Source: Lachnoanaerobaculum orale
GTDB lineage: Bacteria > Bacillota > Clostridia > Lachnospirales > Lachnospiraceae
NCBI RefSeq assembly: GCF_003862485.1
Contig: NZ_RRCM01000005.1
Location: forward strand, 1-47,817
DNA: 47,817 nucleotides
Direction of reading: 5' to 3'
Shown here: positions 7,701 to 29,656 of the stretch, piece by piece
Numbering within the stretch: the first letter of the stretch is position 1
Layout: the number at the start of each line of letters is the position of its first letter
Notes under the pieces: model-generated
What the model was told of the DNA's origin: nothing
Databases searched by the model: none
What the model saw: the letters and a program-made list of their open reading frames with translations, nothing else
Program-made: the position numbers and the translations under genes

Positions 7701-10700
7701 ACAAACATGGCTTTAGAACTCATCCCAAGCCTTTTAGACTCCATCGCAATTCCTATCATCTCAAAGGTCTTTCCCGCCCCTACTTCATGTGCAAGCAGGG
7801 TATTCCCTCCAAAAAGTCCCCTTGCTATTGCATCTTTTTGATGTGGTCTAAGCTTAATTTCAGGATTTATTCCATCAAAAGGCAAATGCCTTCCGTCATA
7901 CTCCCTTAATCGAATGGAATTAAATCTTTCATTATATTTTTTCACCAGTCTGTTTCTTCTGTCCACATCCTCAAAGATCCAGTTTTTAAATTCTTCTTTT
8001 ATAATTTCCTGTTTACTCCTTGCAAGCATGGTCTCTTTTTGATTTAGAACTGATGTTTTTCTTCCATCCGAATCAATTATCTGGTCATATACTTTAGTAT
8101 CTCTAAGATTTAGACTATCCTCTATAAGCTTATATGCACTCACTCTGCTTGTTCCATATGTGAAATTAGCCAGGTCGTTATTTTTATCTGTGCTTTTTCC
8201 CTCTACCCTATACTCTCCCGTAAAATCAGTATATTTAATATCTATATTCCATCTGTTTGATGCGGAGGTCTTTAACAGATTAAACATAAAGCTCTTATAG
8301 TCTTTTTCAGGTATCCATGTAGAACCCATCTTGACAGTTATATCACTTGCTTCAAGAGTTTTCGGCATTACTTCTTCTAACTTTTTCTTTTGATAATTAA
8401 GAGCTGATAATTCCTGTTTTAATACCGAAATTTTCTCTGTTATTTCTGATTTATGTGATAATTCTTCCTGCTTGGATCTTCCCCCGTCAATACCCGATTG
8501 TAATACCTGAGGCTTATCTAACTCCTCTTTATTTTTATTAACTTCATAATCTATATTTTTTATATATGCGTCTACTACTTCTATTTTCTCTCTGATATTA
8601 CCTGATAAGTATTCATCTGCACTGACATATTCTCTTGAAAAATCCAATAAATCCAAAGCTGATGAAAAAGGCGTAATATCACTTGGTTCAAAACTGTCAA
8701 GATTTAAGAATATCTCTCCTTTTAGCCCTTCTATCAGCTCTTTTCTTATCTTTCCTGTAAGCTCCTCCATATACTCAAAGTTTACATTCCCTTTTTGAGA
8801 TATAGAAAGAATCAGTGCTTCGCTTAAGCTATCCGTATGTTCAATTACCATAGCTTTTTTAATAGTTCTTTTTGTAAAAATGTCAGACTTACCGATAAAG
8901 TTACCCTCTTTATCTAGGTTTTCCAAGGTGGATACTAAAGAGTAGTTGGCATCCTCCTGAAGTAGTCTTTTATTTGCCCTTGAATTAATCAGTCCATATT
9001 TATTAGAAAAATCATCATAAAGCTTATTTAATCTCCCCTGTAAGGCTTTTATTTCCTCTTCCGGATAATCTTCCTTTTGATAGGTAATTACTCCTCTTAA
9101 CGCTTTTTCTATTTCAAGATATGCTCCTATCTTCTCCTCATCAGCTTTATTTAAAAGTAACCTTTGCATAATGGAGTTTTCTCTAAAGAACACCTTATCT
9201 TCAATCACTGCATAGGAATAATTTTTAACATTGTCATCAGCCGAAAGTATTTCTGTTTCAAGTTCTTCATTTAACTTCGCCTTTTCATAAGTGCCTTTGA
9301 TATTTTTAATTGCATCCTCAAGCTGCTCTTTTATTGATTTACTTTCATCTGCAATGCAAGCAAGAGTAGTGCCGAACCTGCCCGGTACTTCCTGCATACT
9401 ACCAAGTACCATCTGTGGATTATCTACAAAGTATTTGTTATAGCTTAGTCCCTGCCTGTTCTTATCAAGCTTAACCCAGTCCTCATCTATCTTTAACAGC
9501 CTGTCTCTTTTCTTTAAGAAAATAATATCACTTGTAACCTCTGTGCCTGCTTCACCTTTAAATGTATTATTCGGCAGTCTTATAGCTCCCAGAAACTCTG
9601 CCCGCTCACTTATATATCTTCTTATGTCCTCATTTCTTTTATCCATTGTGCCTGATGAAGTTATAAAAGCAATCACTCCTTTGCTACGCACCTTATCCAG
9701 TGTTTTGGCAAAAAAATAATCGTGAATAAGAAAGTTGTTTTTTTCATACTCACGATCGGATACCCTATACTCTCCAAAGGGTACATTTCCTACAGCTATG
9801 TCAAAAAGATTATTTGAAAAAGCAGTTTCTTCAAAGCCTTTTACCTGAATATTTGCATTAGGGTATAACTTTTTAGCAATCTGTCCGCTGATACTGTCAA
9901 GCTCTATACCGTAAAACTTTGACTTTTGCATTGACTCCGGTAGGTTTCCTATAAACCTTCCCGTTCCCATACTTGGCTCTAAGATATTTCCACTCTCAAA
10001 TCCCATATCCGATAAAGTATGATAAATAGCATCTATTACTACCTTTGGTGTATAAAAGGCGGTTAGCGTACTTTCTTTAGCAGCCTCATACTCTGACTGT
10101 GATAGGTTTTCTTTTAAGAACATCCTTGCCTCCTGCCACTGACCTCCCCGCTCTTCATCAAATACATCTGAAAGACCTCCCCAACCTACATAGCGGCTTA
10201 AAATATCCTGCTCTTCTTTACTTGCATTTCTGTTTTCTTTATTAAGTCTCTTTAGTACCTTTATTGCCTCAATGTTGTTTTTTAATCGCTCTGAGGGTGG
10301 TAGGACTTCATCTTCTCTTGTTATCCTGTAATTTGCAGGTATAATGTTTTTTGTATGTTCTCTACCTGTATATACATCTTCTTGTTTTAATGTTTCACTT
10401 AAAGATTCTTTATTTAAGACAGGTAAAGCTTCTTTATCTACACTTTTCTCCGGTGATTTTTCTTCTGTGGAAAGTATCTCAAAGTCAAGTTCGTTTTCAT
10501 TTCTAAATGTCAGGATCTCACTTCCTGTAACAAAGCCGCTAAGATACTCTTCATTATCATCCAATTTTATTGTTTTACAGTTTCCATAATCACTTATTTC
10601 TGAAATCAGGTATTCCTTTCCTTGATATCTTACCTGCATACCTTCTTTAAAAATCGGCTCATTTACATTTTCTTGTTCATTTGCCTTTTTAATCTGTTCA

Positions 10701-13700
10701 TTTATATAACCTGTAAGAAGTACATTTCTATGGTTATCATCAAGCAAGTAAGAGAGGTTTTGAAGCATTTCATGATAACTTTCATACTCGATTGCACGAT
10801 TAGAATTAAGCATATATCCATTGTATCTCAGGTTTTGCTTTAGCTGTCTGTTTTTCATATCTAAAACAAGCTCCGCTTCATATCCGACTTTCCCGTCTAT
10901 GCTGTTCGTTATATGCTCCGGTACTTTTAAGTTTCCTTCATCTACAGTCTTTTTAAGCAAAGTAAATTCTTCATTTTGTGGGTTGAATTGATATTCATCC
11001 TCTTTCTTTACTTCCTTAAAAGTCAGAGCAGATATAATCTCATTTTTAGCTCTAAGCTCTGATGCCTTTTTATTTTCTTCTTTTGATTTTGGCTGTTTTT
11101 GTACATCGGACACAATATCCTTATTTTCATATCGATCATTCTTTATTAAGTCTTTAATCCTTACTGCCACTTGACTCCAGCTAAGCATAACTTCCGGAGA
11201 GTTTCCCTTTTTAAGCCCGATTCCCTTAGCATCATGCCATTCACTGCTTTCCATATTTCCTGATAAAGCATGAGTTCTTCCACCTGTGCCGTACTCATTT
11301 TTTAAAAACTCCGCCTGTTCTGAAAGTGTATGATTTTCTCTAAAAAAGTCGGCAATCCGTTTTTCACCTCCTGAAATACCGCTTCCTCTTCTTAAATTTT
11401 CATCTATCTCATCTTCTGTGATAAATTCTTTTATCTTTGGTAGTTCAATAAGACCTGAACTAAATTCCTTCCTTGGTATCTCCAAATCATTCAGACTTTT
11501 TAAAATCTCTTCCACCTTGTGAAAATGAAATCTTAATATCCCCTTATTTTCCATATAGTCCTGTAAAAATATGCTATATTCTTCTCTAAGCTTATTTCTA
11601 AATTCAGGACTTCTAAGCTTTTCTGAAAGTTCTTCGGTTTCGTCAGGAAATCCGTTTTTTTCTGTTCGGTCAAGAACCTGTAGGTAAGCTTCTTTTACAT
11701 CATCTGCAAAATCTCTTTTTAAGTACCACAATTTTTCTACAAGTTTTTTTCTTTCATAGTAAAAGGCTTCCGCCACCTCTACATTGGTTGCATATTCACC
11801 GCTTTCAATAAGTTCTCCTATACGTTTCGCTGCATTACTCCATGATAAAATCTGCATCGGATTTGTTTTTGATGAAATATCATTGGATAAGTAAACTCCT
11901 TCTTTATCATACCATGCACAAACCTTATTCCCGGCTACCTCATAACCGTTTCCACCTCTAAAGCTGCTTTGAAGGAAATCAGCTAATTCTTCTATACTTT
12001 TTCCCTTAGAATACTCAGCCAAAATCTTTAATCTTAGGTCTTCTTCATTTCCTCCATAAATTAAAACCGTATCTACTTCTTTTTGCTGTAAGGGCAAGTT
12101 AAATCGCACCTGACCGCCCTCATTCCCGGCAAAAGAAAAGGAAGTCTTTTCAACTTCCCTTTCAATATTTCTGATATTTAGTCGTGAATCACTTTCTATG
12201 CCCAGACTATCTGTTCCAATACCATCCTTGTAAGTGTCATATCGAGATTTTTCTTCAGTCCCATATATTTCAGAAAATCCTCCGACTTCAGTTCGTTTGT
12301 CAGCCCCCAGATTTGCATCATTTTCGGCTCTTCCTTCTCCAAAAACTCCTGTGCCTGTTCCTCTATATTTAGAAGATGCTCCATCAGTGTCTCTTTGTAA
12401 TACATACTCTGATACTGATTCTCCCTGTTCTCCTTCAGGAATTTGAGCCTCTCCCTGCCAAATCTGTTCAGTCTGCTCTGATCTACTATCTTTGGCATCT
12501 TTATATTCGGTATCAAAACTTCCTCTCCATCTTCCATCTTCTCCAAACTGTATGTTCCCCCCTGTTTCTCGAACAGATTCTCTTTGACTATCGGGGTGTG
12601 GGTTTCTTCCTCCAAAAGATATTCCCTGTTCGCCAGTATTACTGTTTCTCTCATCAGCCAAGCCTCCTTTATTTTCTTCTATCTCATTATTTATTGCTCC
12701 GGTATTTTCACTGCTATCATTTACATTATAATGCTCCTTGTCGGTCTTTGTCTGCTCTTTTATCTCTATTTCTTTAAGTTTTTCTCTCTCACCTATCCTC
12801 CCTATTTCTCTTCCGATAGCTATAAGCATTTCTTTAGAAATTAAAGATATTTCTCCAAGAAGGCTGTCAATATCCTGTCCATGCTTAATACCTGATACGG
12901 TTTCCAGTTTGCCCTCATCAACAGGAATACCTATATCCATTCTTTGTGCAAGTGAAACCTTTATGGATTCTGTGATAAATTGCATCAATTCTACTTTGGT
13001 ATAACTCTTAAGCGTATCATCCGTCATCATATCAAAGATGGTATATATCTTTTTCCTAACATATAAATCTATAAGTGCGGTTATCTTTTCTTCCTGTGAA
13101 AAAAGTAGCCTGCTGTTTCTTTCTTTAAAGCTGTCAATCAGTGAATCTACAGCTAAAGTATGCTTCTCAGGTTCATATTTCCACAGTTTTACTTCATTGA
13201 TCTTATTTCCTATACTGACTGTTTGACTGACATCAAATACATACTTTACCTTTGGTATGCTTCTACTTAAATCAAGAATCGGTATTCCCTTTTCTCCTCT
13301 TTTTACACTTCTTCCAAGCTTTTTCCAAAAATCATACTCCGCACAGGCAGTTGCTCTCTTGTAGGTACTGTAAATACTTAACTGGTGCATATATGAGTAT
13401 TTATAGTTATTTCCCATTGTCTTTAGAAAATCTTTGTAGGCACTTACATCCCTTCTGATTTCCTCTAAAGAGTGAGATAAAATATCACTGATTTTTTCAG
13501 TTGAATATCTTGGCATCTTTCCCTCCTTCTTATTTTCAGTCTCTTCTTGTTTTACATTATTTATAATATCGGCCTTTTCTTTATTCCAATCATAAAACTT
13601 TCTTATGCCGTTCATTGCCCTGTCTGCAATATAGTGTATATAGTCCGTACTTCCTCGCCTTTTATACCACTTATTTCTTTTAAGCCCGCTATTTTCCATA

Positions 13701-14506
13701 AGGCTGATTGACTTTTCCACATCTGAGGTGTAATAAAGCAACCTCCCAAGCATAAAAAAATCAGCCTCAGACCGGCTGTTAAAATAGTTTTGATAATTCC
13801 CGTTATATATTTGTCTTAGATCTTCTCCGCTATAGTTAAAGTATCTCCTATTAAAAAGTATGTTTAGAATATCATCTTGTGAAAATCTGTTTTTATCAGC
13901 CAAACTGCTTGGACTTAAATTAATCCTACCGACTTTGGATTCCCCATAATCTATCCTTGACATATATGTTTTATAAAGTGGCAACAGCTCCTGATTGATA
14001 TTTACTATTTTACTTCTGTCTTTATCCTTTAATATATTCCCGGTTATCGTAAAAAATCTGTCCCTGTCATAAATTTCAAGGTTTTTATATCGCTTCCTTT
14101 CTCCCGGTACTTTACCCTTTCCTATAAAATGCAGTCCTGTTTTTGACGGAGAGATTTCCGCATAGGTGGAAATCCCTCTTAGAAAATCTGCTGTCATGGA
14201 AGCGGCATTTAAGTCCATACTGTATTCCATTATCTCATCACTTACCTTATCTATATCAATTCCTATATACCCGTCCCCTAAGAAAAATCCCAAGCCGGTT
14301 TCTTGATTTTTACATAAAGTATCCATGCAATCATCAAAACTGTGCCAAGTTTTTCTATCATTTGACTTGGCAGGTTTTCCATTTGGCATAATAGGCATTT
14401 TTGTGTTTTTTCCGTCTCTTACAATGATTTTATAAAGGCACCATCTTTTCTCTTGCTTTAATTCATCAGGAATATTTTTATATTTGATAAGGTCGGCTTC
14501 TTTCAT
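4754..14506 (-). CDS. 3250-aa polyvalent protein: primase-like, ArdC-like, DNA methylase and SNF2 helicase
   Basis: A single intact frame of 3250 codons. Regions in order: primase/polymerase-like N-terminus ([15 protein letters not shown], near residue 80) plus a helix-bundle region (about 200-300); an ArdC-like ssDNA-binding domain (about 340-440); a low-complexity linker (about 600-780) that overlaps a second gene; two related repeats (about 870-930 and 1080-1150) sharing LSW(S)xxAxRIxxLI; an adenine methylase with motif [10 protein letters not shown] near 1510 and GNVPFG near 1573 in place of NPPY; an SNF2-type helicase with HEVGAGKT near 2242, VDEAHAYKN near 2404, TGTPVSN near 2456 and [10 protein letters not shown] near 2734; a coiled-coil tail; and a C-terminal DTDLDG motif. 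Known relatives on ICEs and phages are thought to enter with the DNA and protect or replicate it. Start and stop overlap neighbours tightly (TAATG). Confidence 0.9.
12196..12654 (-). CDS. TnpV-like protein encoded in an alternative frame inside the giant gene
   Basis: A 152-codon frame on the same strand but in a different frame from the 3250-aa protein. Its ATG is preceded by AAAGGAGG at an eight-base spacing, an ideal ribosome binding site buried in the other frame. The protein resembles TnpV proteins of conjugative transposons: LFEKQGGTY, then IPNIKMP, then [24 protein letters not shown] and LTNELKS, ending MVLEQIVW. TnpV function is not established. The host frame is here a low-complexity G/E/S/R-rich linker, as expected when one frame is constrained by the other. 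The N-terminal 25 residues extend beyond the usual TnpV start. Confidence 0.72.
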
Positions 14507-15309
14507 TATATTTCCATTCTCTTATCCTTTTTTACTGTCTTTTCTCCTTTCCCATTTTCTTCCTGCCTGATCTTTTGCTGATTTTCTTTAAGTGTTTTTA
14601 ATACGGAAGGTTTTCTTTCCATACTTTTAGGCTTTTTCTCATTGCTTTTTTGAATGTTTGTACCTTGCCTTTCACCTCCATTTCTCACAGCTGTTTTTTC
14701 ACTTGTCTTAATGTCTTTATTTTCATTATCCGATTGACTAATCTCTTCCTTATTTCCCTTATTTAACTTTTCCTCATCCTTTTGTATCTCTTTAGATAAG
14801 GTATCCAGTTTTTCAAGGCAGTTATTAAGCTTCTTTTGCTGCTCTTTTATGAAACTTTGCATTGAGTTTACAAGTCCCTTTACAATTCCTATTTTCATCT
14901 CAACAAACTTTTCCTGTGCCTTCGTAAGGTTATAGGTAAGCTGATGTTTCATACTGTCATAAAGGTGCTTAATACTTCCTACCGCCTTTTCCTGAAGATT
15001 AATAAGAGATTTCCCTACTGCCCTAATATCCTTGGCAATAAGGGAGCTAAGGCTTATATTATCCATTTCATTAAGTCTTTTGATCTCCGCCTTAAGACCT
15101 GTTATTTCATCTTTAAGTGCCTTTAACTCTTCAATATTTACATCAAAGTCATTATTTTTTAGCTCTTCTTTAAGCTCCCCGGCAATTTTAAGCTGTGTAT
15201 CCGTATTATCTTCTAAAAAGTCGGCTGTTTTTGTATATTCTTTTTTGATCTCATTTATAACTTCCTTGGTCTGTTCTTCCTGTCTTTGAATGTTTTTATT
15301 ATCGTTCAT
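14506..15309 (-). CDS. Coiled-coil hypothetical protein, 267 aa
   Basis: No family assigned. Residues 1-90 and 130-185 are strongly helical and heptad-like, rich in Lys, Glu and Leu (for example [17 protein letters not shown]). The last 80 residues are basic and disordered. No signal peptide or membrane segment. The start has AAGGAGG with good spacing, and the stop overlaps the start of the giant polyvalent gene, so the two are probably made together. A structural or DNA-associated partner of the polyvalent protein is plausible but not shown. Confidence 0.7.
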
Positions 15310-15342
15310 TTCGTCCTCCTTAAATTCTGTTCTTTATTGTTT

Positions 15343-15894
15343 TTATAAGATCCATTGTAGTTGCGTAATTCCTGTATAACCTACTTCCCATATAAACCAT
15401 GCAAATGCAATGGCATTGCTTTTATACTTTTCAAACTCGGCATTTTTAGCACAGTTAAGTCTTTTGGAAAATACATATACCTTTTTTATAGGATATTTTT
15501 TAAATAACTCATATCTTTTTTGTCCCTCCAAAAATGCTAAGCGAAAAAGCATTGCTATTTTTACTTTCGGGGCAGATATTTCAAGGGCGTGTTTTAGAAA
15601 TTTATCCGCACAAAAATAAGGCGGATTGGTTACTATGTCTAAGGTATTTTCCTTAATCGTAAAAAAATCCACCTCTCTTTTGCTTCCATATCCTCTGTAA
15701 CAAATATCCTCCGCTTTTACCCTGTATCCATGCTCTACCAGTACTTTTCCAATATGCCCCTGACCGCAGGCAGGCTCATATATTGTTTCTCTGAAATTTT
15801 CTCTTATTAAAAGCTCCTTTGTTGCTCTTTTATCTGTGGCATAAAAATCCAAGACCTCTCTGTCTTTACCAAGTTTCATCAATGTATCAAACAT
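15343..15894 (-). CDS. Class I SAM-dependent DNA adenine methyltransferase-like protein
   Basis: A 183-aa Rossmann-fold methyltransferase. Motif I is EPACGQGHIG (residues 40-49) and the catalytic motif is NPPY at 90-93, which indicates N6-adenine (or amino-) methylation of DNA. It is short and lacks an obvious target-recognition domain, as is usual for orphan methylases on ICEs. The gene begins four bases after the topB stop and precedes the coiled-coil gene. No restriction endonuclease is adjacent, so anti-restriction modification of the element is the likely role. Confidence 0.75.
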   Translation of the reverse strand: MFDTLMKLGKDREVLDFYATDKRATKELLIRENFRETIYEPACGQGHIGKVLVEHGYRVKAEDICYRGYGSKREVDFFTIKENTLDIVTNPPYFCADKFLKHALEISAPKVKIAMLFRLAFLEGQKRYELFKKYPIKKVYVFSKRLNCAKNAEFEKYKSNAIAFAWFIWEVGYTGITQLQWIL

Positions 15895-15897
15895 AGA

Positions 15898-17619
15898 TTA
15901 TCTTCCCTGATACTTGGCAATAGTTTCTTTTATCTCGGTTTCAACACACGATAAAAATGCTTCATTTGATGCTTTACCCAGTGCTATATCAGACAAGTTC
16001 ATTTCCCACTTGGCTGTTGTTTTAGCTGACTTAAAGTTATCCTCCACTATCTCTATAAGAGCTTTTCCTTTTTTGGTTGCAATAAGATTTTTCTTATCTC
16101 TTTCTATGAAATCCTTGGAAATTAAATTTTCTATAATACCTGCTCTTGTTGCCGGTGTTCCAAGTCCCCTTCGCTCAACCTCAATTCCCTTTTGCAGTGC
16201 ATCATTACCTGCAATCTCCATAGCCTTAAGAAGAGTATCCTCTGTAAAATGCTTTGGTGGTATCGTATATTTTTCTTTTATCTCTTTATCCTTGATTTTA
16301 AGTACATCTCCCACATTTATATCAGGTAATACAACATCTTCATTTTTCTTTGAACCGTACTGTTTAAGATATTTGGTAAAACCTTCATCTGTAATGACCT
16401 TACCGCTTACCTTAAATTCAAATATATCACCCTGACTTTCATATACCGCAACAATCTTTGTTATATTTTCAATTAAGGGATAGCCTGTACTTGCATGGAG
16501 TTTATTTAAGATAAGGTTATATATTTTTCTTTCACTTTCAGGAATTGTGGACATATCTTCCTCTAAAGAACTTACTGTAGGTATGATTGCATGGTGATCC
16601 GTTACCTTAGCTGAGTTAAAAATAACTTTAATTCTCTCCGTATCAAAGTCATTTTTACCAAGTATGTTATTTATCGTATTTATAATCATATCTTCCGAAA
16701 GATATCGGCTGTCCGTCCTGGGATATGTAATCATTTTCTTTTCATAAAGGCTTTGTGCATAGTCAAGTGTCTGTTTTGCACTGTATCCGAAGTACTTGTT
16801 ACATTCTCTTTGAAGTGTTGTAAGATCAAACGGCAAGTCAGGTTTTGTAAGCTTTTCCTTTTTCTCCACATTTCTTACTGTGATTGTATTTCCTACCACA
16901 TTTACTAAATCTTCTACAATTTCAAGGCTGTCTATTCTGTCTGTTGAAAGAGTAAAACCGGTAAAATAAAGCTCACCTATATAATATTTTTCTTTCTTAA
17001 AAGCTGTTATTTCATCATCTCTTTTTACTATCATGGCAAGCGTGGGTGTTTGTACTCTTCCAACAGAATAATTTTGATTGTAAATAAGGGAATACAGCCT
17101 GCTCATGTTCATGCCGACAAGCCAATCCGCCTTACTTCTGGCAAGAGCTGATTGGTATAGATCTTCATACTCTTTTCCCTCTTTTAGCTGCTTAAAGCCT
17201 TCTTTAATTGCCACATCTTCCATTGATGAGATCCAAAGTCTTTTGATATTCTTTTTACAACCTGCCTGCTCATACACAAGCCTAAAGATCAACTCTCCCT
17301 CACGCCCTGCATCACAGGCATTAATAACAGCCTCAATCTCTTTAGAGTTCATCAGCTTTTTAAGAGTGTTAAACTGCCCCCTAGTTGCCTTTAAAACCTC
17401 ATACTTATACTCACCCGGAATAATCGGTAAATCCTCCAAGCTCCACTTGCCATACTTTTCATCATAAGCTGAAGGACTTGCCATCTGTATTAAATGTCCC
17501 ACACACCAACTTACAATATATCCACCTCCTTCATAGTATCCGTCCTGTCTGCCGGTTGCACCGATTACCTTTGCAATACTCATTGCGACACTCGGCTTTT
17601 CACATATCACTAAATTCAT
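15898..17619 (-). CDS. topB: DNA topoisomerase III
   Basis: A 573-aa type IA topoisomerase. The Toprim domain starts at residue 1 (NLVICEKPSVAMSIAKVIG, and DAGREGELIFR near 104-114). The active-site tyrosine lies in MITYPRTDSRYLS, about residue 298. The protein lacks the C-terminal zinc fingers of long family members, as is common for ICE-encoded TopB. It would resolve intermediates during conjugative replication. The ribosome binding site is AAGGAGG with ATG. It follows a terminator that separates it from the cargo block and heads the leftward DNA-processing operon. Confidence 0.92.
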   Translation of the reverse strand: MNLVICEKPSVAMSIAKVIGATGRQDGYYEGGGYIVSWCVGHLIQMASPSAYDEKYGKWSLEDLPIIPGEYKYEVLKATRGQFNTLKKLMNSKEIEAVINACDAGREGELIFRLVYEQAGCKKNIKRLWISSMEDVAIKEGFKQLKEGKEYEDLYQSALARSKADWLVGMNMSRLYSLIYNQNYSVGRVQTPTLAMIVKRDDEITAFKKEKYYIGELYFTGFTLSTDRIDSLEIVEDLVNVVGNTITVRNVEKKEKLTKPDLPFDLTTLQRECNKYFGYSAKQTLDYAQSLYEKKMITYPRTDSRYLSEDMIINTINNILGKNDFDTERIKVIFNSAKVTDHHAIIPTVSSLEEDMSTIPESERKIYNLILNKLHASTGYPLIENITKIVAVYESQGDIFEFKVSGKVITDEGFTKYLKQYGSKKNEDVVLPDINVGDVLKIKDKEIKEKYTIPPKHFTEDTLLKAMEIAGNDALQKGIEVERRGLGTPATRAGIIENLISKDFIERDKKNLIATKKGKALIEIVEDNFKSAKTTAKWEMNLSDIALGKASNEAFLSCVETEIKETIAKYQGR

Positions 17620-17644
17620 TTATAAATCCTCCTTTTTTTGCATG

Positions 17645-17679
17645 AAAAAAGGCAATCCGAGTTTTTCCTTCTGATTGCC
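17645..17679 (-). terminator. Intrinsic terminator after the cargo helicase
   Basis: GGCAATC (17651-17657) pairs with GATTGCC (17673-17679). The - strand side is followed by TTTTTT at 17650-17645. It ends the helicase transcript before topB. Confidence 0.85.
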
Positions 17680-17762
17680 TTTTGGTTTTTGGTGTTTAAT
17701 TGTTCAAAAATATAATTTTGGCTTAAATCTATTACGGTTTACTTTCATGTGATTTTACCCCT

Positions 17763-20117
17763 TTAACTCTTTCTCTCAAACTTAACTGTATACATATTAA
17801 CAATATCATCTTTTCTAAGCTTATATATATGCAGCAATTCATTAATTTTATTTATATCATTGATATTCCCGTTATGACACAAAGTACTATAAAAATCACG
17901 TAGATTCTTTCTAAAAAATGTCAGTTCTTTCTCAGTCATAACTCTCATATTTTCATTTGGAGAAGCAACTATATCAACAAATTTAGATGGGTGAACAATT
18001 ATTGGTATACATTCATTTGGGTATACATAATTCTCCTTAAACCAATGAACCGATCCTGATAATTGATTACAATAATCTTTCTTTATTGTTTGAGTAGTAG
18101 CCTCCGTCTTACATTCAATTACCAAATACTTACTTGAATCAATAGCCCATAAATTATCTGGTCCATATCCTCCAGTTTCTTTGTCTGGTCTCGAACATAC
18201 AAAACCAAGAGATACCCCAACTTGATTTAGTGCTTCCTCAAATTTCTCATATTCACTCTCCATACATAAATTTGACAAAATTCCGTCTATATATACTAAT
18301 AATTCATTTAACCCAAGCTTTCTTGCAGATATATTTGTGCTAATAGCTTGTGCTTGCGGAATTGTATTAATTGTTCTTTTATACTGTATACCTCTAATAG
18401 GTGAAAGAATAGCTGCACTTAAATTCTTTCCAACTGTTAATATTTCTTGAGCAAGAACAGGGTCTGTTTTATTTGTATATTCAGCCTGAATCTGACATAA
18501 ATATCCTTTTGTTCTTTTGTCATCCTCTTTATCCTTAACCATTTTAATAGTTTCTGCAGCATCAATCCATTGCATATTTATGGATTTTTCAAAAGCTTTT
18601 CTTTGAGCAACTATCCTTTCATCTACCCTCGCCTCATTTGAATACTTAACCGTGGCTAAACTCTCCTTGCAAGTTTTTATCCATTCTGGATTTTTTTCTA
18701 AAGAATAATTTGCAAGTTCAAATATCTGATCAATTGTTGGCTTTGAACCTGTTTCACTCACTAATAAATCCCATAATTGTTTTGAAAGATCATATTGACA
18801 TTTCGTAGCCGCACTAAAATAATCTATTCCCTTACCTCTTGATAACACATCTGAAAGTTCATCCCCCATAAGAACAACACAACATTCATCATCATTAAAA
18901 CGCACTCCTCGTCCCATACCTTGTTCAATTCTTTGAACTTGCTCTCGTAGCAGAATAGTACTTTGAGGAGCTACACTTTGAATATATCTATCTTTAATAC
19001 TATTTAAAGGCGGAAGTCCATCAATGACCAACATTCTACAAGCATCACCTGGCAAATCAATCCCATCATATCTATTAACAAAAATCACTTTTCCTAAATG
19101 AACACCGCTTTTTAATTTATTAACTACTTTATCTATATTATCTTTTGTCGCTGTTCGTTCCCTTTGTTCATCCCAAAATTCCGCTCTAGAAAAAGAAGGC
19201 ACAAGTATCACTACATTATATTTTTTAGCTATTTCCTCAACTTTTTTCTTTATCTCAACTTCTGATATCTCGCTGTTTATATGCTTAGGAAAGATAACTA
19301 ATCTATCTCCAATATCATTAGCATTTTCTGGTGTGATAATATTTTTCATATCCCCTATATCTAATCCAAGTGCAGAAATAAACACACTATCATCGGCTAG
19401 TGTTGCACTCATATATATACGTCTACTTGCATCTTCAAGACTAGATATATTATATAAATCAATTCCTTTAGGAGATATTTCAATCGTAGAAGCTGTAATT
19501 ATACAATCACATGTATCCAAACTTCTCTCTAGCAATGGTAGTCCAAAGTATATTTCGCTATTATCCTTATTATTATATTTCTTTAATATTCTATAAACAT
19601 TGTCTTGCTGTCTTTGCCATTCCCAATATGGAACCAGTATATTTTTTCGACAATCTTTCATTTCAACAACATCAATGTAACTCTTTGGATTATAATCTCT
19701 TAATGACGAACTAAATATAGCTATTAGTTCCCTATATGCATCCGTTCCAGCATTAATTCTTATCATAAATTGGTCAGTAATTTTATCCATACATGCATGA
19801 ACATCATCAATAATAATACTTCCTATTGGATAATTCCCACACTCTCTCATCCCAAAATAACTATGACCATTTACAATAGTCTGAATAGAGGTAACAAGAA
19901 TTGCTTTTGAGTTTGAATAGTTATAATCATCTTTGTCCGCTGTTACAAAAATTCCTAATCTCTTAGCTTCATCAATAACCTGCATAACCAAGTAATTATC
20001 AGGTACCACATATATAGCTGGTCCTTTTCCCTCGTTTAAACAACTCTGAAGCATAATTAACCCAACTACTGTTTTTCCACTACCCGTATTCATTTTCAAA
20101 ATTACATTTTTTTTCAT
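17763..20117 (-). CDS. DinG/XPD-like SF2 helicase with C-terminal PD-(D/E)xK-like nuclease domain (frame-broken at the 5' end)
   Basis: 784 codons from the first in-frame ATG. Walker A NTGSGKT (about 10-16), DEAD-box-equivalent IIIDDVHA (about 103), MSATLADD (about 236), then the DinG/XPD-type motif GIDLPGD (about 353) and QGMGRG (about 401). Near residues 651-670, GPDNLW then YLVIECKTE fits a PD-(D/E)xK nuclease core. The true N-terminus is almost certainly the overlapping 62-aa frame at 20080-20268, joined across a run of eight A. This ATG has no good ribosome binding site. The gene sits with a PIN-like gene between conserved transfer genes and topB, so it looks like cargo, and anti-phage or anti-plasmid defence is the leading inference. 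A dedicated terminator follows. Confidence 0.8.
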   Translation of the reverse strand: MKKNVILKMNTGSGKTVVGLIMLQSCLNEGKGPAIYVVPDNYLVMQVIDEAKRLGIFVTADKDDYNYSNSKAILVTSIQTIVNGHSYFGMRECGNYPIGSIIIDDVHACMDKITDQFMIRINAGTDAYRELIAIFSSSLRDYNPKSYIDVVEMKDCRKNILVPYWEWQRQQDNVYRILKKYNNKDNSEIYFGLPLLERSLDTCDCIITASTIEISPKGIDLYNISSLEDASRRIYMSATLADDSVFISALGLDIGDMKNIITPENANDIGDRLVIFPKHINSEISEVEIKKKVEEIAKKYNVVILVPSFSRAEFWDEQRERTATKDNIDKVVNKLKSGVHLGKVIFVNRYDGIDLPGDACRMLVIDGLPPLNSIKDRYIQSVAPQSTILLREQVQRIEQGMGRGVRFNDDECCVVLMGDELSDVLSRGKGIDYFSAATKCQYDLSKQLWDLLVSETGSKPTIDQIFELANYSLEKNPEWIKTCKESLATVKYSNEARVDERIVAQRKAFEKSINMQWIDAAETIKMVKDKEDDKRTKGYLCQIQAEYTNKTDPVLAQEILTVGKNLSAAILSPIRGIQYKRTINTIPQAQAISTNISARKLGLNELLVYIDGILSNLCMESEYEKFEEALNQVGVSLGFVCSRPDKETGGYGPDNLWAIDSSKYLVIECKTEATTQTIKKDYCNQLSGSVHWFKENYVYPNECIPIIVHPSKFVDIVASPNENMRVMTEKELTFFRKNLRDFYSTLCHNGNINDINKINELLHIYKLRKDDIVNMYTVKFERKS

Positions 20118-20268
20118 TTCTTACATCAAACCATTTTTTCCATACCTCACTTTGAACATCCCGAGGATACCCGTACCCCATTGCTTTTGAAGGTAATGTC
20201 ATAAAAATCTCTCTAGGCTCAATCGTTTTTGTCTTTGAACTAGAATTAAGTTTTGATAAAAGATTCAT
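20080..20268 (-). pseudogene. N-terminal fragment of the cargo helicase, out of frame with the rest
   Basis: A 62-codon frame with an excellent AAGGAG site six bases before its ATG. Its sequence runs through a helicase N-terminus (PRDVQSEVWKKWFDVRNEK) and would continue directly into NVILKMNTGSGKT if one A were absent from the eight-A run (20107-20114, T on the + strand). As written it ends 16 codons beyond the helicase ATG at TAG. Possibilities are a genuine frameshift mutation, phase variation in the homopolymer, transcriptional slippage, or an assembly/sequencing error. It is not an independent small gene. Confidence 0.75.
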
Positions 20269-20289
20269 TGTATACTCCTTGAATTTTAA

Positions 20290-20338
20290 ATTATAGTATA
20301 TTTACAATTATTGTACCTCAAATACTAAGTATAGTATT
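20290..20338 (-). promoter_or_regulatory. Candidate promoter and operators of the cargo helicase
   Basis: On the - strand TATAAT lies at 20295-20290, before the ribosome binding site. Upstream are a perfect palindrome TACAAT-T-ATTGTA (20303-20315, + strand) and a perfect 7-4-7 inverted repeat AATACTA-AGTA-TAGTATT (20321-20338). No good -35 at 17 bases is visible (TTGAGG lies 20 bases away). The repeats may bind a regulator. Confidence 0.4.
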
Positions 20339-20378
20339 TTTTTATTTACTTAAAATCTTTAGCTCTAGTTTCTTCTCT

Positions 20379-21257
20379 TCACATAAGCTTACAACACTCA
20401 TTATACGACATCAAAATTTCGGAAATATTTTCTTTAGAACAGAGTATAACCTCTGTATCTACCTGAAGAAAATAGTATACAGCTTTACATTTATTGAAGA
20501 ATTTTCTATCTACAGTAAATAACTTATCTGCTTTTGTTGCATATATTGCATGTGAAACATCATGAATTCCTGAAATCGTTGTATCCTCTTTTTTTTCTGC
20601 ATTATAGCCATTTATATTTAGTATACGAAATAGTATCTCTATTATAAATTCTAATACCTTATGAGAATCCTTTATTTTAGAATACATCCCTGAGTATATC
20701 TTTAAATCTTCCGGTAAGTCTTTATCTACACCGCACAATTTAAAAACCGAATTTTCATACCTGTTATTATGTTTTTTTATAATATCTTTCATATTAGTAT
20801 TTAATTGACTTATTGCATTAACCATATCCTCATACTCCCAAATTTTGTCAAATTCAATATTAGAGATATTTTGATATTTTTTCTCTTTATCACAAAGTTC
20901 TTTGTAATGCTCTTTGTCTACTTTATACTTATGTTTACCATCAATCTCTATCCTTTGAGTTGTATCATATTTTACTATACGTTCATAGCAAATAAAAGGC
21001 GATTCTTTTTTAATTATTATACTTGTCATAGATGGCAAATACTCCATATCATTAGTAAATTTAGAAATTTGCGAAAGAATATTTTTTTTATTTTCTAAAT
21101 AATTACTATCCCCTTTTTTTAATGCCTTATAAACTTCTTCAATATGGGCTGGGCTATAACAAAAGTTCACAGACTTTTTTAATAAGTCTACTGCTGAAAC
21201 TATTGATTTATCTATTAATGAGTAAATATAAATATTATGATCCAGATAAAAATCCAT
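20379..21257 (-). CDS. PIN-like nuclease-domain protein, cargo partner of the helicase
   Basis: A 292-aa protein. The N-terminus MDFYLDHNIYIYSLI has the Asp-x-Asn pattern opening a PIN-like fold. The C-terminal part GIHDVSHAIYATKADKLFTVDRKFF (about residues 227-251) supplies further acidic residues in the expected HDxxHAxxA...FTxD arrangement, so metal-dependent RNase/DNase activity is plausible. The middle (about 85-200) is a charged helical insertion. It is longer than VapC toxins and has no antitoxin next to it. AAGGAG precedes the ATG. It lies upstream of the helicase-nuclease gene on the same strand. Domain assignment is by pattern only. Confidence 0.62.
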   Translation of the reverse strand: MDFYLDHNIYIYSLIDKSIVSAVDLLKKSVNFCYSPAHIEEVYKALKKGDSNYLENKKNILSQISKFTNDMEYLPSMTSIIIKKESPFICYERIVKYDTTQRIEIDGKHKYKVDKEHYKELCDKEKKYQNISNIEFDKIWEYEDMVNAISQLNTNMKDIIKKHNNRYENSVFKLCGVDKDLPEDLKIYSGMYSKIKDSHKVLEFIIEILFRILNINGYNAEKKEDTTISGIHDVSHAIYATKADKLFTVDRKFFNKCKAVYYFLQVDTEVILCSKENISEILMSYNECCKLM

Positions 21258-21288
21258 AATAAATCTCCTTTTAATTTGATGTTTCTTA

Positions 21289-21306
21289 TAGATAATAGCT
21301 TATCTA
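21289..21306. promoter_or_regulatory. Perfect 7-4-7 inverted repeat upstream of the PIN-like gene
   Basis: TAGATAA-TAGC-TTATCTA lies about 32 bases before the start codon, overlapping the region where a promoter would sit. It has the same 7-4-7 geometry as the repeat before the helicase but a different sequence. Candidate operator. Confidence 0.4.
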
Positions 21307-21389
21307 TGATTAGTAAATACTTTTATATTTGTATCTATAAATATCATACTATATATGAATAAAAAATGCACTATATTCTTTATCCTTTT

Positions 21390-22265
21390 CTACTCATCAT
21401 CATCTTCCTCATAAGCATCTATTGCCATATCATCAACTTCTTCCTGCTCCGTTTCCTCTTGTATTTCTTCCGGTTCTTCTATATTATCCTCGCTTTCATA
21501 ATCATCCTCAAGTTCATTATAGTCTTCATCCTCACTTTCTTCCTGTTTTTTCTTATAAATCTTAAAATAATATCCTGCTCCGGCAACTGCCATAACAAGC
21601 AATCCTAAAAATATATAAAGTCCTCCTCCTTTACCTTCTTCCTTCTTTTTAGGCTCTTCCTTTACCGGTTCTTCTTTTGTTACTTTTGTTGGTGGCGGTA
21701 CCTCTTCTATCTTTTTTACTTCCTCTTTAGGTTTTTCTTTTGCTTCAACCATATTTAATAAATCATCTTCGCTTACTTCTGTAAGCAGCATGACATTTTG
21801 TCCTTCTTCATCATAATTAATGATTAGATGAAAGGTCTTTCCGGACTTTGTTTTAAATGTAATGAACTGTCTGGCATCGGCAAAATATTTACCACTTTCA
21901 TCCCCCGTATTTTCTCCATGATAAATAGGATAGCTTTGATTAGCATTATTTACATTTTCTATAAGATCCGCCTTGGCACTGCCCTCTGCTGTAGGAATAC
22001 CTTTATTTATACCATCACTTTGGCTACCTAACTGATTATCACTTGGAGGCTCTTTTGCATCCAGTTTATTCGGAAAGCGTACTTCCCTTTCTTCTTTATT
22101 ATCTTTACTTGCTGTTTCCTTAATTGCCTCAGTTTCTATTTCACTTTCATTAACCTGTGCAAAAATATATGTAGGGTAAACATTCCCTATAATAAACATC
22201 ACAAGTAGGCAAATAACTCCTACCAATCTTTTCACCCTGTTCTTTTTAGATTTCATTTCCTTCAT
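21390..22265 (-). CDS. DUF4366 (CD1107-family) mobile-element membrane protein
   Basis: A 291-aa surface protein of the ICE transfer module. It has an N-terminal signal/anchor (about 12-32, LVGVICLLVMFIIGN), a soluble extracellular region with the conserved segment GKYFADARQFITFKTKSGKTFHLIIN split over about 125-150, a Pro/Glu/Lys-rich stretch (about 175-215), a transmembrane helix (about 217-237, YIFLGLLVMAVAGAGYYF) and a highly acidic cytoplasmic tail. The start ATG has GGAGG six bases upstream and overlaps the end of the DUF4315 gene. Its role is presumed to be in the cell-envelope part of the conjugation channel. Confidence 0.85.
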   Translation of the reverse strand: MKEMKSKKNRVKRLVGVICLLVMFIIGNVYPTYIFAQVNESEIETEAIKETASKDNKEEREVRFPNKLDAKEPPSDNQLGSQSDGINKGIPTAEGSAKADLIENVNNANQSYPIYHGENTGDESGKYFADARQFITFKTKSGKTFHLIINYDEEGQNVMLLTEVSEDDLLNMVEAKEKPKEEVKKIEEVPPPTKVTKEEPVKEEPKKKEEGKGGGLYIFLGLLVMAVAGAGYYFKIYKKKQEESEDEDYNELEDDYESEDNIEEPEEIQEETEQEEVDDMAIDAYEEDDDE

Positions 22266-22542
22266 TTGTATCCTCCATGATTTTTTCTCTGTTTTCCTCT
22301 ACTCCTTTAGAATTTTCCGGCTCTTTCATTTTCTTTTCACTTTGCCTTTCCTTTTTGTAATTTCTCATCATTTCTAAAAACTCATCAAGTGAAATATCAA
22401 TGCTTCTATATTCTTTTAGAACCTCGACTTGCTCCATTTCCTCCTGCTCTTCTTTAAGTATTTCCTGCCTCAGCCTAAGTTCTTCTATTTTTTCTTCTAT
22501 TGCCTTTTGATTTTCGATATTCTTTTGATACTTTTTATTCAA
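22246..22542 (-). CDS. DUF4315-family small coiled-coil protein
   Basis: A 98-aa protein. TTG at 22542 is chosen as start because AGGAGG lies six bases upstream; an in-frame ATG at 22578 has no such site. Residues 1-45 form a Lys/Glu coiled coil (KAIEEKIEELRLRQEIL), followed by the family's conserved helix here reading SIDISLDEFLEMMRNY. The gene lies between the NlpC/P60 hydrolase and DUF4366, overlapping both, which is the usual ICE order. Function unknown; the context implies the transfer apparatus. Confidence 0.75.
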   Translation of the reverse strand: MNKKYQKNIENQKAIEEKIEELRLRQEILKEEQEEMEQVEVLKEYRSIDISLDEFLEMMRNYKKERQSEKKMKEPENSKGVEENREKIMEDTNEGNEI

Positions 22543-22555
22543 CTTCTTCCTCCTG

Positions 22556-24994
22556 TTATTTAACTCTACCGAAACCATAGAAATGTTCTATCCAGTAAGG
22601 TGTATTTATACTTACAAAACGAATAGGATTGCCTGCATGTATCATCATTCCGTCTCCTGCATAGATACCTACATGGGATATCGGACTATTGCTGTTATAA
22701 GTGTTTTTAAAGAAGATAATATCCCCCGCCTTTGCTTCACTTGGAGATACAGGATTACAATAAGTTTTATAAATCCCCCAAGCAGTGGTTCTTGGCATAT
22801 TTTTAACTCCTGAATGCGTAAAACTCCAGCATACAAAGGACGAACAATCAAAGTTATTCGGTCCGTTTGCTCCAAATACATATTTTTTACCTATATGTTT
22901 CTCCGCTTCGTTAAACAATGCCTTAACCGTTACATCATCAAAGGCAATTCCCGGATTTGAAAAGTCGGGATTGTTTATAATCTCTGATAAGTTCCCGTTA
23001 CCACTTCCAAAAACAAGCTCCATATTACCTTTACTTGAAAGCAGTGCTTCATAGTGGGCTAAATTGTTGGGATAAGAATTAAATACTTCTCTTATGATAT
23101 CGTCCATTTCTCTTTTTTCTAAGTTTACAATGAGTTTTTTATATTCATAAGCTTCTTCATGGCTTTCTGTCTGCTCATTCCCTGCTTCATCAATATAGCT
23201 TGATGTAACGGTTTTATATCTGATTTCAATTTCTTCATTATAGGTCAATGTATACATTTGATTAAACAGCTGTTGTATTTCTCCGGCTATTTCAGATATT
23301 TCTTTTACCACACCATAGCGGGAAGTGATGTATGAGAGCAACTCATGGACATTATGACTGATTTTTTCTTTCCCGTTTATTATATATTCATCATATCCCG
23401 GATGTGTCTCTTCTACGCTTTCCATTTCCTCTTGCAGTCCTTGCTCCAAGGAAGAAAATTCCTGATTGATATTCCTTAAGGTATCTTCTGAGGAAAGATA
23501 GGTTGTAGAAACGGTATCACTGATTGTTCCCGTTCCTATATCCATCACCATGCTTCCTACCTGAAAGAGCATAAAAAATGTCCCTACCACCAAAAGTATT
23601 AGGAACATTATCTTTTTACTTCTTTCTTTTATAAATTCTGCAAACCTTTTACTTCCCTTTGCTAAGGATTTTTTAAGCCCGTTCTTTATCCTTTCTTTGT
23701 ATTTCTTTTGAAGTTGCTTTTTATACTGCCTCCTTTTAAAAAACTGTCTTAACCTTGAAGTGTTTTGATACTCACTACTTTTCTTAAATTCTTCCATATT
23801 TTTCTTGAAAAACAGCTTTTTTTCCTGATTTTCAATATCTTTTTCAAGCCTTACTACCCTTTTTTGTCTTTTTGATGCCCTACCTTTTCCATGATTGTGG
23901 GCTTTTCTTGCAAGACTTTCTATGCCGTCTGTCGTCTTATGAGCGGCGCTGACACCGGCATTGTCCTCTTGTCCACTTTCAAGATACCTGTTTACCGCTC
24001 CTACTACAACTATTGCACTCTTAGAAGATATGCCGTCTTTACCTTTATTTTTAAGTTTCTTTTCAAAGCTTTGCTTTTTATGCTGAAGCTTTAAAATCTT
24101 CTTTTCCTGTTTTCTAAATTTATCATTGGCTTTTTTTGAATATTCTTTAGGCTTAGGCTTTGAATTATCCGCTATTTCTCCTTTATTATCGTTTTTTTCT
24201 TTTACACCATCATTTGTGTTTAGAGGTTTTTTCTTATTCTTAGTCCTTGTAAATTCTTCATCTTCAAAGTTACTTTTAAAATATTTCTTTGGACGATCTT
24301 TTAAGCTTAAATCTTCTTTGTCATGGTTTTCTTGCAAAATTTTCTTATATCTTTTCCTATTTGCTTTTACTTTATTTTTAGGCTTATCAGAATATGCGTT
24401 TACAGTTTTTTCTTTGTATCTTTGTTCCTTGGCTGATACCTTTTGTAAAGCTTTATCATCCCTAAAGCCCATATCACACTGATTAGAAGCTATATTTTTA
24501 TCCGTATCTTTAGATAATTCTTCATAGGTTTCTTTTTCTTTCTGATGAAATCTGCCTATCTGTTTTTGCCTGACCTTTTTATTCTTTTTTGGCTCAAGAA
24601 AAGATTTATTTTGACTTATCTTTCCCTTACCCGGTATCTCATAAGAATCCCTACCTTTATTTAAGTTATTTAAGTCCTTATATTTATCCTCTATATCCGT
24701 ATGATTTATAAATGTTTTCTTAGATGAAGATGTCTTTACTTCAGTCGGCATATCATCTTTAATAAGAACACCCTGATTTTGAACATCTTCTTTTTTATAA
24801 CCGGATTGACTTTCAGATAAAAAAGACTGTATCTCTTGATTTAAAGGCTTTTCTCTACTGTTTTTATACCTTATATTCTTTTTCTTTCTCAAGTTTTTTA
24901 CCTCACTTTCTGTCTTTCTTCCAAATCCTATATATTCTGTATTTATCTTGGATTCTGCATACTGCTTCTCACTTTTTATCTTTTCCCGTTTCAC
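22556..24994 (-). CDS. CD1108-family NlpC/P60 cell-wall hydrolase of the transfer apparatus
   Basis: An 812-aa VirB1-like protein. Residues 1-455 are cytoplasmic, very Lys-rich and low complexity. One membrane helix lies at about 460-482 (MFLILLVVGTFFMLFQ). After an extracellular stalk, the NlpC/P60 domain occupies about 695-812: FDCSSFVC with catalytic Cys near 715, ISHVGIYAGD with catalytic His near 771, and IHAGNP. It would cut peptidoglycan so that the channel can cross the wall. The GTG start overlaps the end of virB4 by the usual few bases and has no clear ribosome binding site, so the exact start is uncertain. Confidence 0.87.
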   Translation of the reverse strand: MKREKIKSEKQYAESKINTEYIGFGRKTESEVKNLRKKKNIRYKNSREKPLNQEIQSFLSESQSGYKKEDVQNQGVLIKDDMPTEVKTSSSKKTFINHTDIEDKYKDLNNLNKGRDSYEIPGKGKISQNKSFLEPKKNKKVRQKQIGRFHQKEKETYEELSKDTDKNIASNQCDMGFRDDKALQKVSAKEQRYKEKTVNAYSDKPKNKVKANRKRYKKILQENHDKEDLSLKDRPKKYFKSNFEDEEFTRTKNKKKPLNTNDGVKEKNDNKGEIADNSKPKPKEYSKKANDKFRKQEKKILKLQHKKQSFEKKLKNKGKDGISSKSAIVVVGAVNRYLESGQEDNAGVSAAHKTTDGIESLARKAHNHGKGRASKRQKRVVRLEKDIENQEKKLFFKKNMEEFKKSSEYQNTSRLRQFFKRRQYKKQLQKKYKERIKNGLKKSLAKGSKRFAEFIKERSKKIMFLILLVVGTFFMLFQVGSMVMDIGTGTISDTVSTTYLSSEDTLRNINQEFSSLEQGLQEEMESVEETHPGYDEYIINGKEKISHNVHELLSYITSRYGVVKEISEIAGEIQQLFNQMYTLTYNEEIEIRYKTVTSSYIDEAGNEQTESHEEAYEYKKLIVNLEKREMDDIIREVFNSYPNNLAHYEALLSSKGNMELVFGSGNGNLSEIINNPDFSNPGIAFDDVTVKALFNEAEKHIGKKYVFGANGPNNFDCSSFVCWSFTHSGVKNMPRTTAWGIYKTYCNPVSPSEAKAGDIIFFKNTYNSNSPISHVGIYAGDGMMIHAGNPIRFVSINTPYWIEHFYGFGRVK

Positions 24995-29068: not shown

Positions 29069-29284
29069 TTAATTAAGTACAGTGGCAAGTAGCGGAATCA
29101 GTTTTAGCCCTATTAAAACTATTCCTCCCCCTGCCATAAGCTGCTTTATTCCCTGTGATTTCGCTCCGGGGTTGTCATTTCCATAACCTTCAAGCAGGTT
29201 TATGACTCCCCATGCTCCAAGTCCTGCCCCTATTGCTGTTACCAAAATCTTTAATACATCTACCGCCTGTGTAAAAAATGCCAT
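29069..29284 (-). CDS. Maff2-family mobile-element membrane protein
   Basis: A 71-aa protein with two hydrophobic helices (about 8-28 and 48-68) separated by a Gly/Asn-rich loop (LLEGYGNDNPGAKSQ). It is characteristic of Tn1549/CTn-type ICEs. The size and topology resemble VirB2/TrbC pilin-type subunits, so a role in the channel or surface filament is inferred. GAGGAGG precedes the ATG, and the start overlaps the ssb stop (TAATG). Confidence 0.9.
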   Translation of the reverse strand: MAFFTQAVDVLKILVTAIGAGLGAWGVINLLEGYGNDNPGAKSQGIKQLMAGGGIVLIGLKLIPLLATVLN

Positions 29285-29607
29285 TATTCTTCCTCCTCAT
29301 TTACTGTCTTATCTGCCTTGTTAAGATGTTTTACAATAAAGTTTCTATAACTTTTATCTTCCTTTTTAACCTCTTTAAAATAGCCGAAAACATGGATAAA
29401 ATCGCCTTTTTCAAAGTCCTTTGTAAGCTCGGCTTTTTCACCGTAAACATTGCAATTTATATACTCCTTCTTTTTCTCTCCTACCTTTCCCATCTTTCTA
29501 AAGAGGGTAAAATTAGCAGCTTTAACTTCCCCGTCCTTACCATTGATAACTTTTATCTCCACCTCATTAATCAGATTTCCGTTGATGTTAAACATTTCTT
29601 TTTGCAT
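29284..29607 (-). CDS. ssb: Small single-stranded DNA-binding protein
   Basis: A 107-aa OB-fold protein: FNINGNLINEVEIKVINGKD, then ANFTLFRK, YINCNVYGE and KGDFIHVFGYFKE match the SSB strand pattern. It ends in an acidic tail (VNEEEE), as in SSBs that bind partner proteins. ATG 29607 is chosen because CGGAGA lies just upstream; an in-frame start at 29649 has none. It sits within the transfer operon between the 53-aa gene and Maff2, and probably protects single-stranded transfer intermediates. Confidence 0.85.
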   Translation of the reverse strand: MQKEMFNINGNLINEVEIKVINGKDGEVKAANFTLFRKMGKVGEKKKEYINCNVYGEKAELTKDFEKGDFIHVFGYFKEVKKEDKSYRNFIVKHLNKADKTVNEEEE

Positions 29608-29633
29608 ATAATTTCTCCGTTTCCTATTTGATT

Positions 29634-29656
29634 TAATAAAAAAGACCATAGTCTTT
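29634..29656 (-). terminator. Terminator-like hairpin in front of ssb
   Basis: On the - strand AAAGAC-TATG-GTCTTT is followed by TTTATT. It precedes the ssb ribosome binding site by about ten bases, so it could attenuate transcription from virD4 into ssb and the channel genes. Confidence 0.5.

Follow-up and report, generated by a model that had tools for sequence, protein, structure and literature searches.

The stretch of DNA analysed here (the window; 47,817 nucleotides, positions 1 to 47,817 of contig NZ_RRCM01000005.1 of Lachnoanaerobaculum orale, assembly GCF_003862485.1, 2.80 Mb in 13 contigs) contains genes of an integrative and conjugative element (ICE) of the CD1110/CD1115 type, which encodes a VirB4 protein of the CD1110 family and a VirD4 protein of the CD1115 family. 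Between the gene for a CD1107-like protein (DUF4366) and the topoisomerase gene topB of this element, the list of open reading frames (ORFs) of the window gives two minus-strand ORFs, of 292 and 784 amino acids (aa). This block very probably represents two unconnected cargo genes that occupy a variable site in the ICE, the larger one hna and the smaller one, a PIN-like gene, carried along. The sequence identifies the helicase-nuclease as Hna (PADLOC PDC-S28), a known single-protein abortive-infection system, and the find is mostly ordinary: a known system at a new location, in an apparently damaged copy.

The helicase-nuclease and its reading frame

The in-frame part of hna (17763..20117, minus strand) carries superfamily 2 (SF2) helicase motifs and a C-terminal PD-(D/E)xK motif, with GPD at residues 652-654 and ECK at 668-670. 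A preliminary description of the block had noted helicase motifs followed by GPDNLW...ECKTE in one protein, and all of these could be placed in the 784-aa ORF: NTGSGKT at residue 10, DDVH at 104, GIDLPGD at 352, QGMGRG at 399, GPDN at 652 and ECKTE at 668. The same description could find no named system that matches. However, the best profile by far is PADLOC PDC-S28, with 916 bits (residues 2-782 on positions 52-829 of the 831-position profile), and the sole match in the Protein Data Bank (PDB) at 1e-5 is Hna of Sinorhizobium meliloti (E 1.9e-113, residues 2-780), to which the window protein is 31% identical. According to the structural paper, PDB entries 10UJ and 9YKJ both represent this S. 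meliloti protein (Nat Commun 2026, PMC13381803). Pfam gave general helicase domains only (DEAD, ResIII and Helicase_C_2, all above their cut-offs).

The residues of S. meliloti Hna that were mutated in the structural paper, P712, D713, E727 and K729, correspond to P, D, E and K in GPDNLW...ECK. They are kept in all 24 rows of a family alignment, which represents 23 distinct loci including the window, as L001 and L049 are two rows for a single place; two copies that are fragments, L050 and L122, were not included. The earlier proposal of a DinG/XPD-like helicase fused to a PD-(D/E)xK nuclease, with GPDN...ECK as the nuclease motif, is borne out. The proteins from S. meliloti and the window have the same catalytic residues and the same order of an SF2 helicase pair and a C-terminal PD-(D/E)xK domain, and both are borne on horizontally moving DNA. 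They differ in that the carrier is a symbiotic plasmid in S. meliloti and an ICE here, that the frame of the window copy is broken in the assembly, and that the dimer-loop residues are not the same. The S. meliloti loop residues T30, D31 and P34 are M, G and Y in L001, the element of Lachnoanaerobaculum gingivalis KCOM 2030, which among named relatives comes closest to the block (hereafter the sister element). P34 occurs in 5 of the 21 rows with a residue at this position, with an alignment gap nearby, and by the look of the alignment the three loop residues would not be family-wide. In the Q-motif, R36 is found in 16 and Q39 in all of the 21 rows that have a residue at the position.

DinG, ExoDinG and type IV-A DinG helicases have helicase domains in common with the window protein, but match it much more weakly than PDC-S28 does (typeIV_DinG 4e-14; DinG models 2e-4 to 6e-4). 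Hna has itself been likened to ExoDinG, with the difference that the iron-sulphur cluster is absent from Hna, as stated in the S. meliloti paper (PMC13381803). According to a survey of the Bacillus cereus group, PDC-S28 is among the candidates made of the same proteins as a differently named DefenseFinder system.

Matches to the Hna profile at E 0.001 occur in 86 of the 397 genomes of the family sample. At the best place per genome, 8 genomes score above 800 bits and 4 between 223 and 347 bits; the rest stay below 54 bits and are read as general helicases. Among plasmid records 249 match Hna, 183 of these over at least 80% of the query, and 10 were examined at the locus level; in viral contigs no match was confirmed. 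Hna was reportedly first described by Sather et al. in 2023, and the open-licence library that was searched yielded one paper for PDC-S28 and none that joins Hna with ICEs, phage defence and Lachnospiraceae.

The 784-aa ORF is indeed present, but it appears from the sequence to be incomplete, and the preliminary description had missed a break in the hna frame of the window assembly. Profile PDC-S28 begins about 50 residues ahead of the ORF start, so that the first 51 profile positions are lacking. The missing N-terminus lies in another frame, in a 62-aa ORF (20080..20268, minus strand), of which the segment 20107-20265 matches profile positions 2-54 (1.8e-11). This piece includes the Q-motif region with RDVQ, which is also seen in the intact sister Hna and which in the window is out of frame with the remainder. 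The ATG at 20268 is preceded by AAGGAG; read by eye, none such is visible ahead of the ATG at 20117. The frame shifts within a run of eight A residues at about 20107-20114. Intact hna genes of 834-835 aa are present in the sister element and in L002, L003, L004 and L048, and the 784-aa frame is 99.9% identical to the intact sister Hna. Loss of the N-terminus matters because mutation of R36/Q39 in S. meliloti abolished ATPase activity and raised nuclease activity and toxicity, as given in that study (PMC13381803). The window copy would be expected to yield little or no normal Hna.

Two other accounts of this copy deserve consideration. The frame break could be an assembly error in an ordinary, intact hna gene, a possibility that we take seriously and nevertheless find rather doubtful: the break sits in an 8-base A-run, and the stretch shared with the sister element has three frame-changing indels against 17 substitutions, which fits sequencing error in either genome, but the window PIN-like gene, whose frame is open, contains two more 8-base runs (at 20589 and 21082). 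It is considerably less probable that the window copy is a working short Hna, made either by starting at the ATG at 20117 or by slippage on the A-run that gives a low level of full Hna. The 784-aa frame is wholly open and nearly identical to its intact sister and, since R36/Q39 and the dimer loop at the N-terminus restrain the S. meliloti nuclease, a short form is not expected to be merely silent. Against such a form stand the lack of a visible ribosome site ahead of 20117 and the toxicity of the unrestrained nuclease reported for S. meliloti. Furthermore, the A-run is absent from L004 and L048, that is, from two of the four Lachnospiraceae copies compared besides the sister, which makes a programmed frameshift unlikely. 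The reading of the window copy as a broken gene has parallels among the 25 distinct Hna loci (window included): hna is also interrupted by stops in L050, by a split frame in L056 and by an IS3 element in L122, a Geobacillus plasmid, and the Hna of L052 lacks approximately the first 105 profile positions. Given these other interrupted genes, Hna may often be lost.

The PIN-like neighbour

The smaller ORF (20379..21257, minus strand) encodes a protein of 292 aa that can putatively be called PIN-like by its four invariant acidic residues. Six sequences were aligned: the window protein, one from a Clostridioides phage (L061), two from plasmids (L045 and L044) and two from genomes in the same family (L057 and L060). 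The acids D6, E41, D233 and D250 do not vary among these rows, nor do S35, A37, H38, H236, A240 and T248, and this D..E..D..D order of acids is one that we take to be typical of PIN nucleases. The earlier PIN-like designation holds as far as the ORF and the four acids in six out of six rows are concerned, and finds no backing in Pfam, where no match passed its cut-off and none was to PIN (best PL48, 18 against the 31.4 bits required). PADLOC and NCBIfam gave no match either, and PHROGs at best E values of 0.1-0.5. One of seven aligned family members, L058, which resembles residues 168-266 of the 292-aa protein, scores 25.3 bits with Pfam PIN, above the cut-off of 23.6 bits; when this short sequence is added to the alignment, D6 and D250 alone among the acids remain invariant. 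Profile comparison with a PIN set confidently aligned only about 20 N-terminal residues (P 0.0025; VapC set P 0.086), and a single-sequence AlphaFold model, made without an alignment, reached a mean confidence score (pLDDT) of 34.1. The protein has the acid order in common with VapC and other PIN-domain ribonucleases, and part of it resembles L058, but the VapC proteins compared are only about half as large, and the sole same-strand ORF of at least 60 aa beside its gene between the border genes is hna.

In the libraries searched the family is uncharacterised, and it is rare. In the phylum sample it occurs in one of 398 genomes, the genome studied here; in the family sample in 6 of 397 at E 0.001, with the own genome included and some of the matches weak; and in the class sample in 2 of 391 at 1e-6 with the alignment as query. 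Two plasmid records and one phage record also match, and no relatives in viral contigs were confirmed by the searches; a motif search gave a single contig, which bears the motif at its end. For one of the plasmid relatives (L044 6001-6723, on an Acetobacter plasmid) the next annotated gene downstream, at a distance of about 400 bp, is the first of a type I restriction-modification operon.

The preliminary description had joined the two genes into one system and proposed a search for the conserved pair. For this the PIN profile was run on 944 ORFs (minimum length 60 aa), taken from the window and from the stretches around 24 other distinct Hna loci, which were chosen rather than sampled at random and whose flanks vary in length (623 bp upstream in L002, a 5.1-kb contig in L051), so that a distant partner could escape. 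A clear match to the family was found in one of these 24 loci, the sister element (L001, the same place as L049); L066 gave a match of 13 bits to a gene annotated as DUF932. The close Hna relatives L002, L003, L004 and L048 (77-85% identity) are intact and have no gene of the PIN family in the examined flanks. In the opposite direction, no Hna-like ORF was found in the tested loci of PIN relatives (L044, L045, L057-L061 and L108). With the sister element as the one exception, the two genes were not found together again in this material, an outcome that the preliminary description had named as refuting its proposal.

The two elements that carry both genes are themselves informative. The sister has an intact Hna and a broken PIN-like gene, whose residual ORF starts only with residue 71 and so is without D6 and E41, and in the window the situation is reversed. 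That one gene is broken in each element argues against either gene needing the other in order to be tolerated, and, if both breaks are real, intact Hna without intact PIN-like protein in one element and the reverse in the other argue against a toxin-antitoxin bond in either direction. By the loci and flanks examined, Hna is a single-gene system without a conserved PIN partner and the pair is not a conserved unit, a statement that concerns the PIN family, as no systematic search for other kinds of partner was made; the PIN-like neighbour is probably unrelated.

A two-gene defence system, with the PIN-like protein serving Hna as partner or as another effector, perhaps by cleaving RNA after phage detection, is very improbable in our view. 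It would account for the position of the genes, which in both carrying elements are same-strand neighbours with about 110 bp between them, and for the occurrence of VapC/PIN genes of other kinds near Hna in two plasmid loci. Against it are the 23 of 24 other distinct Hna loci whose examined flanks gave no clear PIN family match, the PIN relatives without an Hna-like gene, the break in one of the two genes in each element, and the description of S. meliloti Hna as a single-effector system in two papers (PMC13381803; PMC12445080). The plasmid genes are, in L117, a vapC separated from Hna by about 1.2 kb and, in L121, a PIN gene at a distance of about 3.5 kb, neither of which matches the family profile; together with the RelE-type toxin-antitoxin genes on both sides of Hna in L066, we read them as ordinary plasmid neighbours.

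Some observations weigh against our preferred reading of two independent cargo genes with hna as the larger. Two elements do hold both genes side by side, which, with one recent exchange between them, counts as one event, and the PIN genes of L117 and L121, even if of other kinds, are near Hna. Each frame break is seen in one assembly only, and errors in sequencing, in either genome or in both, may be behind it. Finally, an identity of 31% and different dimer-loop residues leave room for a regulation that may differ from that of S. meliloti Hna.

The cargo site and its recent exchange

The placement of the block between a DUF4366 gene and topB of an ICE, as originally proposed, was confirmed. 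One border gene is topB (15898..17619, minus strand; Topoisom_bac PF01131 with 379 bits, plus Toprim), for which relatives were found, and the other encodes the CD1107-like/DUF4366 protein (21390..22265, minus strand; PF14283). Five other Lachnoanaerobaculum genomes were available for comparison and the gap contents were viewed in ten elements, which is a small and non-random sample; further topB relatives exist beyond these ten elements and two distant pairs that were looked at. Other elements of the genus have in common with the window the 52 bp after the CD1107-like gene (21338..21389, minus strand) and 70-85 bp before topB (17620..17704, minus strand), which sets the approximate limits of the cargo insert at 17705..21337. 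Since these flanks are common and the contents differ in sister elements, the gap is a cargo site. The notion of defence-type ICE cargo is likewise upheld.

Seven of the ten gaps are occupied and three are empty, and a clear match to a defence family was found in four of the seven, or in three of six if the window/G485 block is counted once. The window and G485, very likely the genome of the sister element, have the PIN-like and Hna genes. Element C27 of genome G1160 (L100 2477-6414) has genes for a protein of 737 aa in which a cold-shock domain occurs with an AAA/STAND-like ATPase (CSD-AAA) and for proteins of 298 and 128 aa, possibly an undescribed defence set, and C28 of the same genome has cupin, MsrA-rhodanese, phosphorylase and GNAT genes. 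A 248-aa protein without match occupies the gap in G780, and AbiEi/AbiEii with a small ORF that in G1179. In G1159 (L105 3116-4606), where the topB-side flank is conserved and the CD1107-like gene was not found, the gap holds a 496-aa ATPase-TOPRIM protein that matches PADLOC ATPase-Toprim_I-B at 1.5e-38, a model that presumably represents a retron effector. Elements G1160 C1 and G1161 have a gap of about 0.1 kb and no cargo, as has G402 no cargo. In the two more distant pairs (G1160 C11; G1161 near 1235253) the matches to the border genes are nearly adjacent.

The block had also been credited with its own terminator, an idea that we reject. A hairpin terminator is real (17647-17683, z -3.9 against shuffled sequences), but it lies in the topB-side flank that is common to elements with other cargo, and no terminator came up in the pattern scan; the hairpin is part of the element backbone and not the cargo's own. 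As regards own promoters, promoter-like sites number 24, against 23.4 in shuffled sequences. Folding was computed for three stretches, and the gap between the PIN-like gene and hna is unremarkable (z -0.9). The gap before the PIN-like gene (21270-21400, minus strand) folds with moderate stability (z -2.6; 3 of 200 shuffles were as good).

The cargo is included in a near-identical stretch that the window shares with the L. gingivalis element (11000..22850; 11.0-22.85 kb against L049, G485 C1). Over approximately 11.8 kb there are 17 substitutions and three indels, whereas the background outside the shared block has 25-129 substitutions per fully aligned kb. A near-identical block in a diverged background implies that the PIN-hna pair was shared once and recently, and the 11.8-kb block, by this sequence pattern, is recently exchanged DNA and a sharp sign of recent recombination. 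Each of the three indels disrupts a gene: hna in the window, and the PIN-like gene and a 183-aa gene in the sister. The latter gene adjoins topB (15343-15894, minus strand) and is open in the window; in the G780 element (L102) it is split into ORFs of 84 and 56 aa. Elsewhere in the window, a 3250-aa protein (4754-14506, minus strand) has SNF2 helicase and NrS-1 polymerase-like domains above the cut-off, and an Eco57I-type methylase match slightly under it.

It is tempting to go further and to regard the DUF4366-topB gap as a cargo-exchange site of this ICE lineage that is stocked to a considerable extent with anti-phage modules (Hna, AbiE, ATPase-TOPRIM and perhaps CSD-AAA), swapped by homologous recombination through the flanks, with the PIN-like protein as founder of an undescribed family of defence or toxin nucleases that act independently and are present there, on the Acetobacter plasmid and in the Clostridioides phage. 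We put this forward as a tentative idea that is more likely to fail than to hold in its entirety.

Proposed function and significance

Family membership, catalytic residues, position, the lack of a conserved partner and the broken frame were obtained in this analysis; the trigger and the mechanism are those described for S. meliloti. That work describes Hna as an autoinhibited dimer that is held by ATP and as a 3'-5' exonuclease on single-stranded DNA (ssDNA) that is activated by a phage single-stranded DNA-binding protein (SSB), and reports that mutation of the dimer loop frees the nuclease, which is toxic when unrestrained (PMC13381803). According to a second study, hna alone brings back phage resistance in S. 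meliloti without pSymA, and the gene has been transferred horizontally (J Bacteriol 2025, PMC12445080).

By analogy, the Lachnospiraceae copies of Hna would act in the same way. Intact Hna would, by homology, be held by ATP as an autoinhibited dimer; a phage SSB would split the dimer and thereby free the 3'-5' ssDNA exonuclease, upon which the infection would abort. The PIN-like gene would most likely encode a separate small nuclease of the defence or toxin type, a passenger beside hna. The ICE also encodes a small SSB-like protein (29284-29649, minus strand; PF00436, E 4.8e-4, under the curated cut-off), and since S. meliloti Hna is triggered by phage SSB, an ICE with both Hna and an SSB-like protein would need to avoid self-triggering.

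The analysis adds ICEs of Lachnoanaerobaculum to the carriers of Hna, which in them is exchangeable cargo, and the sister elements argue that it needs no PIN partner. With an intact hna in one element and a broken one in the other, these elements are suited to asking if Hna is a protection for the host or a burden on the element, and the cargo site could be mined for more defence genes.

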